Source of the DNA: Halobacteriovoraceae bacterium
Lineage (GTDB): Bacteria > Bdellovibrionota > Bacteriovoracia > Bacteriovoracales > Bacteriovoracaceae
Assembly (NCBI GenBank): GCA_002711995.1
Contig: PASN01000014.1
Coordinates: 248,001 to 312,000 of the forward strand
DNA length: 64,000 nucleotides
Direction: 5' to 3'
The translations under genes were made by a program, and so were the position numbers. The first letter of the stretch is position 1; every line of letters begins with the position of its first letter. This document shows positions 848-6,896 of the stretch, in pieces. The notes beneath the pieces are model-generated. The model was not told the DNA's origin. It made no database searches and saw only the letters and a list, made by a program, of their open reading frames with translations.

Positions 848-3712
848 TTGGAGTCTGTTTTGGCACAACTAAGTGAATGCTCACGTTTATTTTTTTTAGC
901 TTTGTTGCTCTTAGGTTTTAGTGGTTGCAGCAAGCGCGCGAAAGGAGTTGCTGAGTTATCTCAAAGTGGAGATCCAGGAAACACCAGTACAAGGGTGGGA
1001 CAAAATAGGTTTAATCACAATTTGGATAAGGCAGACCTCGTTCATGTTAGAGGGAATCACCTCTACGCTGGGTCCAAGCTCATTAAGCTAATTGATGTCA
1101 CCACTCCATCAAGTCCTCAAACTCTTTCAACCATTACTTTTCAAAGTCAGGTAAAAGCTATTGTAGAACAAAATGGCCAAGCCCTGTTTATCTCTGGAAC
1201 CGGCCTTTATATTTACGACGTATCTAATTTTAGCAACCCTGTACTGGTGGGAAGTCTAGACTTATGGGCCGTGACACCAATCAAAATGACTGCTGATGGG
1301 ACGACCGCTTATATTGCTGCTGATGACTCTGGAGTGTTGATTGTTGATATATCAAACCCTGCGGCGCCCACTCTTCTTTCAAGTTTTGATACTGTTGGTC
1401 GCGCAAAGGATATAGCTTTTTATAACGGCCATCTACTTATTGCGGACTTTGGCAACGGTTTAGTTGTATTAGACGTATCAAATCCTTCAACGCCTGGCCT
1501 TGTCACCACATATGCAAGCACGGTTGGCTATGTTTATGGGCTTTCCCTAAACGGGGATGTCCTGGTTTTAGATGGTGAGAGTGAGTTTGAATTCGTTGAT
1601 ATAGCGACTCCGGGCACTCCTGCAACAATAGCCGACTTAGATTTGGATTATCAATACCTTGATAGGGTAAGTGTAGCGAGTGATGATGTTTTATACGTGA
1701 GCGCAGAGGAGAGAGGTGTTTTCTTATATGACATTTCAGATCCAGTAAATCCCGTTCATCTGGGGTCTTACAATACAAATGGTTCGGTTCAAGACCTTTC
1801 ATATGAAAATAATTATCTATATGTAGCTGATGGTTCAGGGGTTTCAGTACTAGATGTTGCGGACAAGCAAAGTGTCTTGGCCCTGTCCAAAGCAAGTTTG
1901 CCTACCACCAATCCGGAATACAGTGTTAAAAGTGGAAATTTCCTGTACGTAGCCACCAGAAACGATTTCTTACATGTGTTTGACGTTAGCACTAGCACAA
2001 ACCCTGTTCTCAGAGGCTCATTGGACTTGGGTGGAAGGCCTACATTTCTAGAGTTTTATAACGGTTACGTTTTTGTAACGAGATGGACTGTTGACGACTT
2101 ATTAATAATAGATGTGTCTGACCCTGACAATCCAGTTCAGGCGTCTCAAATTACAGGACGTTTTGAAATTAGGGGAGCAAGCCAGATTTTGGATGATCAC
2201 CTTTATACCATTAGCTCCGACACGAATCCAACGACTTTAGATATTTATGATATATCCTCTCCATTATCTCCCTCCTTGATAAGCTCAACCAGTATGACTC
2301 AGCCTGGGTATTCAACACATCAAGAAATTGGTGTTAAGGTTAAGGGAAACTATGCCTATATAGGTAAAGAGAGAGATCCTGTTGTGGTCTACGACATCTC
2401 TGATAAGTCCAACCCTGTTCTTGTTCCAACAACAAGGAAATCATATATGAAAAGCGATGCATGGAGGATGTGGCAAAGAGGTGACCATTTATTCTTCAGA
2501 GAAGATTCAGATGGTTTGACTATCGTGAATATTGCAAATCCTAGCTCTCCACATTTAGTTAACAATATAGAAAACTGGTGGGGAGATTTTTATGATGTAG
2601 AACTTAGTGGGACCATGTTGACCACTATATCGAACAGGCAAGGGATAGAGTTTTGGGATTTTTCAAATGATAAAGTTATTAAATCGTTGGGTGGATTTAA
2701 TCATCTCACGGATGGAAGTTATGGAACTATCTTTATTGATGGCAACACGGCCTATGTCACAAGTAGTAGTGAACTACACATCCTAGATATCTCAGATAAG
2801 GAGAGTGTAGTCGAAGTTGCATATATTCAAGAAGGATTTGCAGATTATGTAGAGGGCACCGTTTATAAAAATGGATATTACTATGTCGTTAATGACTTTG
2901 GTAATTTACATATTTGGGATGTGTCTAATGGATTGGGGGGAGAGTTCATTAAAAGCATGAAAACTTCAAATAATAGTACTTATTCGATTGGAAAAGGCCC
3001 TGGTGATACCCTTTTATTAGAAACAGAGGCTGGAGGAATCGTTTTAGATGTTTCCAACCCCACAAACCCTGTTGAGGTCACAAGAGGGTTTAGGCTGTTC
3101 AGTTGTGATGAAAATAGTGGTCAAGAAGGAAGTACTTATTACTGCTTCAGCTATGGAGGATTGCATCTTTATGATGTCACAAACCCAAGCTCACCTACTA
3201 TCATAAGCACTCAGAAAGAGTATGGAGTAAAAGGTGGGGCCCACATAAATGGGGATGCTTTTGCTTATAAAAATGATGGAATTTACTATATTGATACTTC
3301 TGATTTGAACTTGCTAACATACACGAAGGTTTATTCTCCACCTACGGAAACAAGGGACATTGCCACAAAGGATGGATTCCTTTATGTTTTTAACAATAGC
3401 GATGGGTTTGAGATTTTGGATGTTTCCTCACCTTTATCTGCTTCAACTGTTTTTACTTACTCTGGTTCATCCGGAGAGAAGTTTCGCTATAGCACTATAA
3501 TTGATGACGTTATGATTACTCCTACTAATGACGGAAGTATATCTATTTTCGACGTTGGGAATGCTAGCACTCCGGCCTTGATTGAAAAGCAGAGTGTTGA
3601 AAATTCCTTTCAAACAATAAGTAATCATGAGGGGAGCTTGTATCTTAGAGACTCAGAGGGATTTTCGCCAATACAAGTGAGACCTGACAAAACTGTGGAT
3701 TTTGGGTGGTAA
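848..3712 (+). CDS. Large LVIVD-repeat beta-propeller lipoprotein
   Basis: This 954-residue protein is predicted to be a secreted lipoprotein: a hydrophobic stretch (LFFLALLLLGF) precedes an F-S-G-C lipobox near residue 27. The rest is about 20 imperfect repeats of roughly 40 residues, each centred on a motif of the type 'LIVDISNPxxPxLLSS' (examples: VVLDVSNPSTPGLV, FLYDISDPVNPVHLG, HLYDVTNPSSPTII). This is the LVIVD repeat, which folds as beta-propeller blades; such proteins are surface or periplasmic and probably bind other proteins or glycans. No start ATG exists: the frame opens with TTG at 848. TTG at 860 is better placed after GGAG (850-853) and would give a protein four residues shorter. 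Several repeats in the middle (around residues 590-680) are degenerate. Function unknown. Confidence 0.85.
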   Translation: MESVLAQLSECSRLFFLALLLLGFSGCSKRAKGVAELSQSGDPGNTSTRVGQNRFNHNLDKADLVHVRGNHLYAGSKLIKLIDVTTPSSPQTLSTITFQSQVKAIVEQNGQALFISGTGLYIYDVSNFSNPVLVGSLDLWAVTPIKMTADGTTAYIAADDSGVLIVDISNPAAPTLLSSFDTVGRAKDIAFYNGHLLIADFGNGLVVLDVSNPSTPGLVTTYASTVGYVYGLSLNGDVLVLDGESEFEFVDIATPGTPATIADLDLDYQYLDRVSVASDDVLYVSAEERGVFLYDISDPVNPVHLGSYNTNGSVQDLSYENNYLYVADGSGVSVLDVADKQSVLALSKASLPTTNPEYSVKSGNFLYVATRNDFLHVFDVSTSTNPVLRGSLDLGGRPTFLEFYNGYVFVTRWTVDDLLIIDVSDPDNPVQASQITGRFEIRGASQILDDHLYTISSDTNPTTLDIYDISSPLSPSLISSTSMTQPGYSTHQEIGVKVKGNYAYIGKERDPVVVYDISDKSNPVLVPTTRKSYMKSDAWRMWQRGDHLFFREDSDGLTIVNIANPSSPHLVNNIENWWGDFYDVELSGTMLTTISNRQGIEFWDFSNDKVIKSLGGFNHLTDGSYGTIFIDGNTAYVTSSSELHILDISDKESVVEVAYIQEGFADYVEGTVYKNGYYYVVNDFGNLHIWDVSNGLGGEFIKSMKTSNNSTYSIGKGPGDTLLLETEAGGIVLDVSNPTNPVEVTRGFRLFSCDENSGQEGSTYYCFSYGGLHLYDVTNPSSPTIISTQKEYGVKGGAHINGDAFAYKNDGIYYIDTSDLNLLTYTKVYSPPTETRDIATKDGFLYVFNNSDGFEILDVSSPLSASTVFTYSGSSGEKFRYSTIIDDVMITPTNDGSISIFDVGNASTPALIEKQSVENSFQTISNHEGSLYLRDSEGFSPIQVRPDKTVDFGW

Positions 3713-3730
3713 AGATTCAGACCTAAAAAG

Positions 3731-4393
3731 TTAACTGGCCTTCTTTAAATATGGGAATTTCTTTTGTGGAGTTAATGGACTTGCTTGAAGTTGATTTCTG
3801 CATTTAGAGAAACTACCATTTTCTTTTTTGCATACCCAATGGGTGGCAATGTCTAGCCACTTTTCCTTGGTTGCAGGACTAAGAAATACCTTTCTATTGT
3901 TATGCGAGCTTTCAAATTCCAATGCTGCCTTCACCAGCTTGAGAGTGTCATTGCAAATAAGCCTGTCTGGGGAATCCATGAAAATGTATTCGGATGCGGA
4001 AAGAATTGTTTTCCCGATCCCTACAAGCTTTTTCTCTTCGCATGTGAGGTCTTTAACTATTCTGTTTATACAGTCAGTTTCCTTAATTAAGTCTTTAAGG
4101 TGAGGATTTTTTAGGTTGTCAGACGTATGCCTGAAGTTGTCTTCACTGTTTTTGATCAACGAGGTTGGAACCGCGTCCAGTATGTAGTTGTCTTTAATGC
4201 TTAGATTCTGATGAAGTCCATCCTCAGCGGATGAAAAGGAAAAGTTGATGAGTCCTTTCTTTCCTGTGAACTTAATATAGTAAATAAAGTCCTTAAGCAC
4301 GTTAGCGCTGAATGATTTTTGCTCTGAATTGAACAAGTATATCTCTGGTGAATGTAGAACTTTTAAATCAGTCATTGTGATACTTGTCGTCAT
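3731..4393 (-). CDS. ABC-ATPase-like protein lacking Walker A
   Basis: A 220-residue cytoplasmic protein with no signal peptide. Residues around 117-147 align without gaps to the signature and Walker B part of ABC transporter ATPases: L-T-C-E-E-K stands where LSGGE(K/Q) is expected, then V-G-I-G-K-T-I-L, then YIFMDSP where the consensus is (I/L)LLLDEP. The catalytic Glu after the Walker B Asp is Ser, and no P-loop (GxxGxGKS/T) exists anywhere in the protein. A stretch NLSIKDNYIL upstream resembles the segment following the Q-loop. So it appears to be an ABC nucleotide-binding domain that has lost ATP binding and hydrolysis. It is divergent from the mnmA-like gene at 4454, with 60 bp between start codons, and convergent with the LVIVD gene (18 bp apart). 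Its partner and role are unknown. Confidence 0.7.
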   Translation of the reverse strand: MTTSITMTDLKVLHSPEIYLFNSEQKSFSANVLKDFIYYIKFTGKKGLINFSFSSAEDGLHQNLSIKDNYILDAVPTSLIKNSEDNFRHTSDNLKNPHLKDLIKETDCINRIVKDLTCEEKKLVGIGKTILSASEYIFMDSPDRLICNDTLKLVKAALEFESSHNNRKVFLSPATKEKWLDIATHWVCKKENGSFSKCRNQLQASPLTPQKKFPYLKKAS

Positions 4394-4453
4394 ATTTTCC
4401 CATTTCCTTGAGTGCGGGCTTTAAGGCATAATATATCTGGAGCAAATAATTTT

Positions 4454-5671
4454 ATGGATAGTCGATCAGATTTGACAGGTAAGAAGGTCGTCGTGGGAAT
4501 GACCGGAAGGATGGATTCCGCCATGGCAGCGTTTCTGCTTAAAAAGCAGGGCATGCAGGTTATTGGGCTTTCTATCGTCACTGTAAGCGAAGACATTGTT
4601 GAAAAGGACAAGTACCTGCCAGCATGCCACATAAATGATCTAGACCAGGTTCAAAAGCTCTGTAAGTTCTTAAATATCCCATTTTATGCCACAAATGCTC
4701 GTCCCAGATTTGAAGAAGAGGTCTTGGACAAGCTTGTTTCAAATAAGCTTTTAGGAAAGGCCAATAGCTCATGTTTTGACTGTGCTAGAGCAAGAATGAA
4801 GATTCTCCATAGTAAAATGGAGGAATTGGGCGCTGACTTTATTGCAACTGGGCACTATGCAAAGGTAAGAATAAACCTTCGCTCAAAGAATTACTACCTC
4901 TGCTCATCTGGTGAGGAGAGTTCGGATCAATCTTTTCTTTTGGCCGGCACGCCCAATTATGTTTTGGAAAAGCTACTTCTGCCCCTTGGTGAGTTAAGCA
5001 AGAAGGAAGTTTTAAAATATGTGAAGCACTTTGCGCTGCCTGTGGCAAACTCTATCCCTTTGGATGGGTTTTGCTTCCAGTCTAGAAAGGCCTCAAAAAA
5101 GGTTATAGGCGACAGGGTGCCAAAGTCTCTTAAAAGGCCAGGAAATGCCATAAATGTTGAAACTGGTACCACCATTGGTGAACACGAAGGAATGGCCAAC
5201 CACTACATTACTGAAAAAGAGCCTTTCTTGAAAGGCGCAAGTCATATTGACAAAGAATTAGAGGTGGTGGCCTTTGATTATCCCACAGCCTCCCTGCTTA
5301 TTGGAAGGCCTTCAAGGTTAAAGTTTTCTGGTGTGCAGCTCTCCAGGCTTAACACAATGGAAGGCCTTGACCGCTCCAGACCAATGCAGTGTTTTGTTAA
5401 ATTCAAATATTCCAAAAAGTTTTCTAAAGCTGATCTATTCTTTAAAAATAACGAATCCGCCTTTCTAGAATTTCATGAACCTGTTTATCCATTGGTTGAA
5501 AATGAATCCATCGTTCTCTATGAAAGCGCTTCAAACAACAGTAAGGTCGTAGGTTGGGGGCTTCTCGGAGTAAGAGGGGACTTTGAGCTTTTAAACCGTG
5601 TGGAAAGCTTTGAAGACGAAGAAGTTGATGAAGATCAACCTAAGGCCGCACCGACCTTATTTAGATTCTAA
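4454..5671 (+). CDS. MnmA-like tRNA 2-thiouridylase paralogue with altered PP-loop
   Basis: About 405 residues with the full MnmA architecture: ATP-pyrophosphatase domain, central domain and C-terminal barrel. The two active-site cysteines of MnmA appear to be kept (FDCARARMK for the nucleophile region, DGFCF for the second Cys), as does GADFIATGHYAK. The PP-loop that binds ATP, SGGVDS in MnmA, reads TGRMDS here, and the central 'YTIGQRKGL' motif is replaced by HYITEKEPFL. The protein ends with an acidic tail of about 20 residues. I chose the ATG at 4454 because alignment with MnmA starts just after it and GGAG lies at 4439-4442; a GTG at 4412 would add 14 residues. It is followed 58 bp later by a canonical mnmA. 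It may thiolate a different substrate, act as a partner of MnmA, or be inactive. Confidence 0.8.
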   Translation: MDSRSDLTGKKVVVGMTGRMDSAMAAFLLKKQGMQVIGLSIVTVSEDIVEKDKYLPACHINDLDQVQKLCKFLNIPFYATNARPRFEEEVLDKLVSNKLLGKANSSCFDCARARMKILHSKMEELGADFIATGHYAKVRINLRSKNYYLCSSGEESSDQSFLLAGTPNYVLEKLLLPLGELSKKEVLKYVKHFALPVANSIPLDGFCFQSRKASKKVIGDRVPKSLKRPGNAINVETGTTIGEHEGMANHYITEKEPFLKGASHIDKELEVVAFDYPTASLLIGRPSRLKFSGVQLSRLNTMEGLDRSRPMQCFVKFKYSKKFSKADLFFKNNESAFLEFHEPVYPLVENESIVLYESASNNSKVVGWGLLGVRGDFELLNRVESFEDEEVDEDQPKAAPTLFRF

Positions 5672-5729: not shown

Positions 5730-6896
5730 ATGGACTTTGAACAATCTAAGAAGAAGCTTGAAAAGTACGGTATCGAGCTGACGCTTGAACAGTACAAACA
5801 TAATCAAAACAAGACAGTAATCTGCGGCATGAGCGGGGGAGTGGATTCCTATGTGAGCGTGCTTGTTTTGAAACTTCAAGGCTACAACACTTTTGGTCTT
5901 TTCATGAGAAACTGGGAAGAAAACGATGAGAATGGAGTCTGTGCCGCTGAGGAAGATTTTAAGGACGTGATCAAGGTTTGTGAGAAAATTGACGTCCCTT
6001 ATTACTCTGTGGACTTTACCAAAGAGTACTGGGACAAGGTCTTCTCAAACTTTTTAGAAGAGTATAAAGAAGGACATACGCCGAATCCCGACATCCTTTG
6101 CAATAAAGAAATCAAATTTAACGTATTTTTCCAGAAGGCCAAAGAGCTTGGCGCTGATTATCTTGCCACTGGCCACTACTGCAGAAAGGTTGTGGAAGGT
6201 GGACGCTCCTGTTTAGTTAAAGGTGTGGATAAAGGTAAAGACCAAACCTACTTCCTTTATACCATGCAAGAGAAAGTGCTTGATGAAGTGCTCTTTCCTG
6301 TTGGAGATCTTCCTAAAAAGGTGGTTAGAGAGATCGCGGCGGACTTTGAACTGGCGACCAGCGCTAAGAAAGACAGCACTGGAATATGTTTTATCGGTGA
6401 GCGAAACTTCAAAGAGTTTCTATCGAACTATATTAAGTCTCAGGCCGGCGAATTTGTTAATCTAGAAAACAATCAAAAAATGGGCGCACACTCCGGATAC
6501 TGCTTTTATACAATCGGCCAAAGAAAAGGCCTTGGGATCGGCGGTCCAGGCGGTCCTTGGTTTGTTGCCGGAAAAGACGTGGAAACTAATACCGTCTATG
6601 TGGTTGAGGGTGAAAAACATCCTGCTCTTTACTCCCAAACACTGTGGTTTAACGAGCCTAGCTGGGTGGGTGACGAACCTAACTTTCCAATTAAATGTAA
6701 GGCCAAAGCTAGATATAGACAACCAGATCAAGACTGTACGGTCTATAAGGAAGGCGATCTTTACCGAGTAGAGTTTGAGGTCCCTCAAAGAGCAATTGCT
6801 CTTAGGCAATCAGTGGTTTTTTATGACGGGGAAATTTGCCTGGGTGGCGGCGTTATTCATAAGACTGGGCCAACATTGTTTGAACAGAAGGCCTAG
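5730..6896 (+). CDS. mnmA: tRNA-specific 2-thiouridylase MnmA
   Basis: MnmA installs the 2-thio group on wobble uridine 34 of tRNA-Lys, -Glu and -Gln, using ATP to adenylate the base and sulfur passed from the IscS/Tus relay. The 388-residue product has a canonical PP-loop (GMSGGVDS, about residues 33-40), the catalytic Cys in PNPDILCNKE (near residue 128), GADYLATGHYCR, and the second cysteine in DSTGICFIGE. The YTIGQRKGLGIGG motif of the central domain and the GGGVI end of the C-terminal barrel are also present. Length is typical. It follows its paralogue closely on the same strand and may be co-transcribed with it. Its stop codon overlaps the stop of the convergent small gene on the other strand. 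Confidence 0.96.
   Translation: MDFEQSKKKLEKYGIELTLEQYKHNQNKTVICGMSGGVDSYVSVLVLKLQGYNTFGLFMRNWEENDENGVCAAEEDFKDVIKVCEKIDVPYYSVDFTKEYWDKVFSNFLEEYKEGHTPNPDILCNKEIKFNVFFQKAKELGADYLATGHYCRKVVEGGRSCLVKGVDKGKDQTYFLYTMQEKVLDEVLFPVGDLPKKVVREIAADFELATSAKKDSTGICFIGERNFKEFLSNYIKSQAGEFVNLENNQKMGAHSGYCFYTIGQRKGLGIGGPGGPWFVAGKDVETNTVYVVEGEKHPALYSQTLWFNEPSWVGDEPNFPIKCKAKARYRQPDQDCTVYKEGDLYRVEFEVPQRAIALRQSVVFYDGEICLGGGVIHKTGPTLFEQKA

Follow-up and report, generated by a model that had tools for sequence, protein, structure and literature searches.

An MnmA-like paralogue with an altered ATP loop beside mnmA in Bacteriovoracaceae: a candidate partner of D-type MnmA

Two MnmA-like genes lie side by side

We looked at the genes around an MnmA-like paralogue in a stretch of 64,000 nucleotides of DNA, hereafter called the window, from a Halobacteriovoraceae bacterium of the Bdellovibrionota, a relative of predatory bacteria. 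The paralogue (4454..5671, + strand) encodes 405 aa, its open reading frame running from an ATG at 4454 to a stop at 5671, with GGAGC about 12 bases ahead of the ATG and a GTG at 4412 as a possible longer start. Based on the reading frame, Pfam and NCBIfam matches, alignment and an AlphaFold model, it was assigned as a pseudo-MnmA, probably derived from C-type MnmA. The normal mnmA that the initial annotation had described next to it is found immediately downstream on the same strand (5730..6896). According to Pfam, NCBIfam and alignment, this neighbour is a canonical D-type mnmA with the motifs SGGVDS, TPNPDILCN, GICF and YTIGQRKGL, and it reaches 439.8 bits against an NCBIfam cut-off of 284. 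No other MnmA match was present in the genome, and the two proteins share 25% identity. On the other side, a gene divergent from the paralogue (3731..4393, - strand) encodes a 220-aa protein without a Pfam family; a homologue occupies this position in 45 of 66 loci, and the protein gives a weak ABC-ATPase-like NCBIfam match. Further upstream, positions 848-3712 (+) encode a 954-aa LVIVD-repeat beta-propeller protein with a lipoprotein-like start.

To compare the paralogue with MnmA enzymes, domain searches and alignments were used. Pfam detected the HUP domain (132.8 bits) and the C-terminal barrel (22.1 bits), and it gave no match to the central PRC-barrel domain in the paralogue, a domain that was matched in the neighbouring mnmA. 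The whole protein stays below the curated cut-off of NCBIfam NF001138 for MnmA (193.9 bits vs 284). Alignment bore out the motif changes that had been read from the translation: where MnmA has SGGVDS, the PP loop consists of T17, G18, R19, M20, D21 and S22 (TGRMDS, codons 4502..4519), with three of five fixed positions unchanged: G18, D21 and S22), and HYITEKEPF (residues ~250-258, 5201..5227) stands at the position of YTIGQRKGL. Both active-site cysteines are kept, since C110 and C207 (codon 5072..5074) align with Cys102 and Cys199, the catalytic pair of E. coli MnmA. A third cysteine, C107, was absent from the initial description; it forms with C110 a CxxC pair, C107-F-D-C110 (4772..4783), to which C207 is distal. 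Judged as an MnmA enzyme, the protein thus has the catalytic cysteines and lacks a score above the NF001138 cut-off, SGGxDS and YTxGQR.

The predicted fold is that of MnmA

The AlphaFold model of the paralogue (pLDDT 89.6, pTM 0.86) was compared with known structures by structure alignment with Z scores, and Foldseek was also run. The best matches were MnmA structures (2hma, Z 36.1; 2det, Z 35.2, over 349-350 residues; 2det/2deu, Z about 35). The next-best folds were far lower and covered only about 145-160 residues (LarE, Z at most 14.9; NcsA, 14.2). These sulfurtransferases, LarE and TtuA/NcsA, have the PP-loop HUP domain in common with the paralogue, but its C-terminal domains and sequence are those of MnmA. 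The three-domain MnmA layout is therefore borne out by the predicted fold, although Pfam misses the central domain; we take COG0482-like to be the label for this fold family.

The paralogue is widespread and stays beside mnmA

We defined the distribution of the paralogue by a search of 100 Bacteriovoracaceae genomes. A match of at least 292 bits was found in 86 of them (a hand count; canonical mnmA reaches about 244 bits at most). The 14 genomes under this score include G033, G122, G188, G189, G029, G211, G012 and G019, the last of which has a very diverged copy. The first four are all the sampled genomes of one genus without the paralogue, in which a D-type mnmA is present. G024 contains one broken copy in two fragments (<300 aa, broken frame), which were dropped from the alignments and later analyses. 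Identical sequences were counted once.

Gene order was then compared among 66 distinct loci bearing the paralogue. In 60 of these, mnmA lies on the same stretch, always downstream and on the same strand (60/60). A gene for an M28 peptidase (Pfam) separates the pair in 46 of the 60 loci (for example L181 6201-7343 and L122 6305-7312); the window and 13 further loci lack it there but still have the paralogue and mnmA together.

Could the paralogue be a decaying relic, a pseudogene in the making? Some observations fit with this: it changes faster than mnmA (dN 0.24 vs 0.14), one genus has lost it and G024 holds only a broken copy. However, the frame of the window's gene is open, and between the window genome and its nearest relative, G001, synonymous change is saturated while nonsynonymous change is low (paralogue, pS 0.875 and pN 0.204; mnmA, pS 0.825 and pN 0.127). 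With synonymous sites this saturated (pS 0.71-0.88), raw pS, pN and dN are given rather than a dN/dS ratio. These values clearly point to purifying selection on the paralogue, with less constraint than on mnmA. The occurrence in 86 of 100 genomes, the invariant cysteines described below and the confident predicted folds argue in the same direction. Decay is thus strongly contradicted and we consider it very improbable; the earlier view that the gene is not merely decaying holds, given the saturated synonymous sites against a pN of 0.20 and the persistence of the gene beside mnmA across the family.

The cysteine site outlasts the ATP loop in the lineage of the window

Motifs were counted in 65 paralogue rows and 147 canonical MnmA rows. 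An intact SGGxDS was present in 5/65 paralogues vs 145/147 canonical sequences, and YTxGQR in 0/65 vs 143/147. Canonical MnmA has eight Lys/Arg columns with a conservation of 95% or more; in the paralogues these were kept at only 19%, as against 57% for the 49 other columns of the same conservation. In the alignment, all 65 paralogues lack one residue that E. coli MnmA has after its DxxC segment, where they have CxxC or its remnant. The triad 107/110/207 is complete in 35 paralogues and wholly absent in 28, and two have C110 alone. Loops of triad-bearing members include SGGINS, TPKIES, RHSLDS and TNSADS.

To follow the site changes, the loop and triad columns and G019 were left out of the alignment before a tree was made. 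This tree required two changes for C107, two for C207, four for C110 and 12 for the loop Asp. The 35/28/2 split was tried as an independent statistic of co-loss and set aside, since the tree shows just two changes of the triad state, and Fisher values were left unused; for this reason, the argument on the cysteines rests on their invariance. In the window's part of the tree, the triad is invariant in 33/33 rows; this part was delimited as what is left once the smallest side that contains every triad-less row is taken away, and is thus partly defined by the result. Only 9 of 405 columns are invariant there (L29, C107, C110, L118, G133, D158, Q159, P177 and C207), over a subtree of 37 substitutions per site with a mean pairwise identity of 0.29. 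The second loop Gly is found in 15/33 of the same rows and the loop Asp in 23/33. Among the remaining 31 rows, C107, C110 and C207 are kept in 2, 4 and 2, respectively, and in the triad-less part of the family the gene order beside mnmA and the fold persist; the predicted model of one cysteine-less member, L181, has the MnmA fold (pLDDT 90.3). These patterns indicate that in the lineage of the window selection guards the cysteine site and not the ATP loop. The initial annotation would have counted it as a refutation if close relatives had lost the cysteines; such loss does occur, but it is confined to a distinct part of the family and does not reach the closest relatives. Members of the same genus keep them.

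A protein of this kind might still be a working Fe-S sulfurtransferase in the triad-bearing lineages, with a relaxed ATP loop, acting at another tRNA position or on another substrate. That the triad, D158 and Q159 are invariant in the 33 rows is what would be expected of such an enzyme, and G18, D21 and S22 in the loop, the SGGxDS of 5/65 members and the full predicted fold are compatible with it. ATP may still be bound, because those five members keep SGGxDS and TGRMDS holds three of five fixed residues. On the other hand, triad-bearing members carry loops such as SGGINS, TPKIES, RHSLDS and TNSADS, YTxGQR is lost in 65/65, the conserved Lys/Arg are mostly lost, and the gene is also retained elsewhere in the family by members with no triad cysteine. 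We regard this explanation as rather unlikely. The proposal of the initial annotation that the protein modifies another tRNA is weakened by the loss of most conserved Lys/Arg residues and of YTxGQR, but it stays a live rival.

Sulfur supply and the idea of a carrier

Another proposal was that the paralogue is a sulfur carrier handing persulfide to the adjacent MnmA. Searches of the window's genome gave no match to TusE/DsrC or TusA, and among 39 sampled genomes TusE was found in one and TusA in four, though many have a D-type MnmA. Because of these missing matches, the sulfur route to the D-type MnmA of the window probably differs from the E. coli relay, which leaves some room for a sulfur role of the paralogue without requiring one. 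The missing matches and the triad kept in the window's lineage are in line with a carrier. Contrarily, 28/65 members without any triad cysteine still lie beside mnmA, and TusE is absent in 38/39 genomes including G050, which has a D-type mnmA and in which no paralogue was found, so that no carrier seems needed. As a family-wide role the carrier idea does not stand, since those 28 members, and two with C110 only, keep gene, place and fold; we give it a low probability.

The paralogue probably descends from a C-type MnmA

MnmA proteins fall into a D-type class (DxxC) and a C-type class (CxxC), and the C-type MnmA of Thermus thermophilus carries a [4Fe-4S] cluster, according to the sections consulted of PMC11784392 and PMC8584467. 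All canonical MnmA rows from paralogue-bearing loci were D-type (58/58). When scored with the paralogue HMM, CxxC-type MnmAs (those of other families and Clostridial ones) mostly reached about 235-325 bits, and D-type MnmAs about 170-250. A first tree was made of 77 rows, with 18 paralogues (every second of the first 34, plus that of the window) and every third family mnmA, leaving out G005, G013, G019, G101, G147 and G158. In this tree, the family mnmA grouped with E. coli MnmA on a starred branch, and the paralogues formed one side of another starred branch, outside the D-type group. When the paralogues were forced together with the family's own mnmA, the tree was worse by 53.6 lnL (AU p 0.04, a borderline value).

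The CxxC...C motif, the HMM scores and the tree thus point to C-type descent, and the paralogue may be seen as the relic of an ancient C-type MnmA, a view that the tree taken alone supports, though not strongly. By the same three lines, the paralogue is probably not a diverged copy of the adjacent gene but comes from the other MnmA lineage; a local duplication of the neighbouring mnmA is disfavoured, with the AU p of 0.04 as borderline. The C-type MnmA of T. thermophilus, for which Shigi et al. 2020 is reportedly the key paper, has the MnmA fold and the three cysteine positions in common with the paralogue; the latter differs in having TGRMDS, no YTxGQRKG, one residue fewer behind the CxxC segment (65/65 rows) and a D-type MnmA alongside. 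The D-type MnmA of E. coli has the same fold (Z about 35) but DxxC and an intact SGGVDS, where the paralogue has CxxC and TGRMDS.

In family f8, second C-type MnmA copies are found at other loci (L202, L201, L199, L200, L198 and L042); these range from nearly canonical (G127) to altered (G104, G151), and all three cysteines are present in 6/6 rows. The paralogues join these copies with weak support (53), and long branches underlie their placement with C-type MnmA. The f8 copies are possibly intermediate stages of the same history.

A candidate partner of D-type MnmA

What do all members of the family have in common? The scaffold is kept everywhere, and the ATP loop and the cysteines are not, so ATP-dependent thiolation or sulfur transfer would not be the family-wide role. 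With the scaffold as the sole constant, binding is the role to expect of every member, and the unvarying place of the gene beside mnmA makes MnmA the likely partner. The reading that we favour, held with about as much confidence as doubt, is that the paralogue is a conserved pseudo-MnmA, a non-catalytic partner of D-type MnmA, derived from a displaced C-type MnmA.

Under the scenario that we infer, an ancestor with a resident C-type MnmA (CxxC...C, Fe-S type) would have come to hold an E. coli-like D-type MnmA as well, and the newcomer would have taken over the 2-thiolation of U34. The old C-type protein would have been retained, shedding thiolase features (the ATP loop, YTxGQR and the Lys/Arg residues), and turned into an accessory of the D-type MnmA, encoded just upstream of it. 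It would bind or orient the D-type MnmA, or MnmA together with tRNA, as Ctu2/Ncs2 does for Ctu1/Ncs6, presumably without thiolase activity of its own. In the lineage of the window, an Fe-S cluster or a persulfide is probably still bound by the intact triad, which might serve to supply sulfur, to gate it or to sense oxygen, and another part of the family would have dropped the triad and kept the scaffold. A physical partnership with MnmA is what the shared locus would suggest. Against this reading, the invariant triad, D158 and Q159 are also expected of a working sulfurtransferase. Canonical MnmA works alone, and the paralogue appears dispensable in one genus, since all four of its sampled genomes have a D-type mnmA without it.

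We also looked at whether evolutionary distances co-vary among the genes of the locus. Over 37 loci, paralogue and mnmA distances co-varied beyond the M28 and divergent genes (partial correlation 0.64, permutation p 0.002), and the other partial correlations were lower (paralogue-M28, 0.25; mnmA-M28, 0.18; mnmA-divergent gene, 0.02). In a set of 43 loci without the divergent gene, the values were 0.57 for paralogue-mnmA and 0.51 for paralogue-M28. Because the paralogue-M28 value comes this near, and because co-variation between homologous proteins may have other causes, the correlation is only suggestive of a partnership. The same data bear on a function apart from thiolation, tied to the M28 peptidase or to the divergent gene. 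The M28 gene between the pair in 46/60 loci, the divergent gene in 45/66 and the 0.51 of the 43-locus set are in its favour; yet 14 loci, that of the window included, have the pair together and no M28 gene in between, and in the 37-locus set the paralogue correlates most highly with mnmA (0.64 vs 0.25 for M28). Such a function seems improbable to us.

The nearest known likeness to the partner reading is Ctu2. In the parts consulted of PMC4014090, the PP loop of Ctu2 is described as loosened to SGGXXS, and in those of PMC10067955, Ctu2 lacks the Fe-S cysteines and is thought to orient tRNA in a heterodimer with Ctu1. As far as these excerpts go, Ctu2/Ncs2 resembles the paralogue in being a U34-thiolase paralogue with a loosened PP loop and an intact catalytic Ctu1/Ncs6 alongside; it differs in its PP-loop subfamily and in having lost the Fe-S cysteines, of which the window's protein keeps three. 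In 28/65 relatives of the paralogue all three are gone, as in Ctu2. The heteromer is known for Ctu1/Ctu2, and the paralogue-MnmA pair is known here from its genes and from models of the paralogue by itself. It is tentatively conceivable, though we find it doubtful in this full form, that Bacteriovoracaceae have a two-subunit thiouridylase made of a catalytic D-type MnmA and an Fe-S-bearing, ATP-loop-degenerate subunit from a displaced C-type MnmA, the cluster being later discarded in some lineages. If true, bacteria would have their own counterpart of the Ctu1/Ctu2 split, reached by gene replacement and not by simple duplication.

It is openly disputed whether MnmA works through an Fe-S cluster or through persulfides (PMC11784392, in the sections consulted). 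The paralogues are a natural set of MnmA relatives: in one part of the tree the triad has outlived an unaltered ATP loop, and in another it is gone. Wherever the stretch read contains both genes, the neighbour is a D-type enzyme. With such a set, the contributions of cluster, ATP site and partner protein could be told apart, and if the partner reading is true, the pseudo-subunit theme of Ctu2 extends to bacterial tRNA thiolation. No description of the paralogue-mnmA pair was found in the literature searched, a body of text with most subscription papers outside its scope. The data suggest that a displaced resident enzyme was kept rather than lost.

Minor observations were made at single loci. 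Locus L106 (G065) has a 633-aa MnmA frame at 686-2584, whose Arg-rich N-terminal part looks like read-through and not like a fusion. A little upstream of the paralogue in L181, a gene at 2925-4073 encodes a C-5 cytosine DNA methylase (Pfam), and the first residues encoded by L133 2957-4099 and L124 3562-4776 resemble those of this methylase gene.
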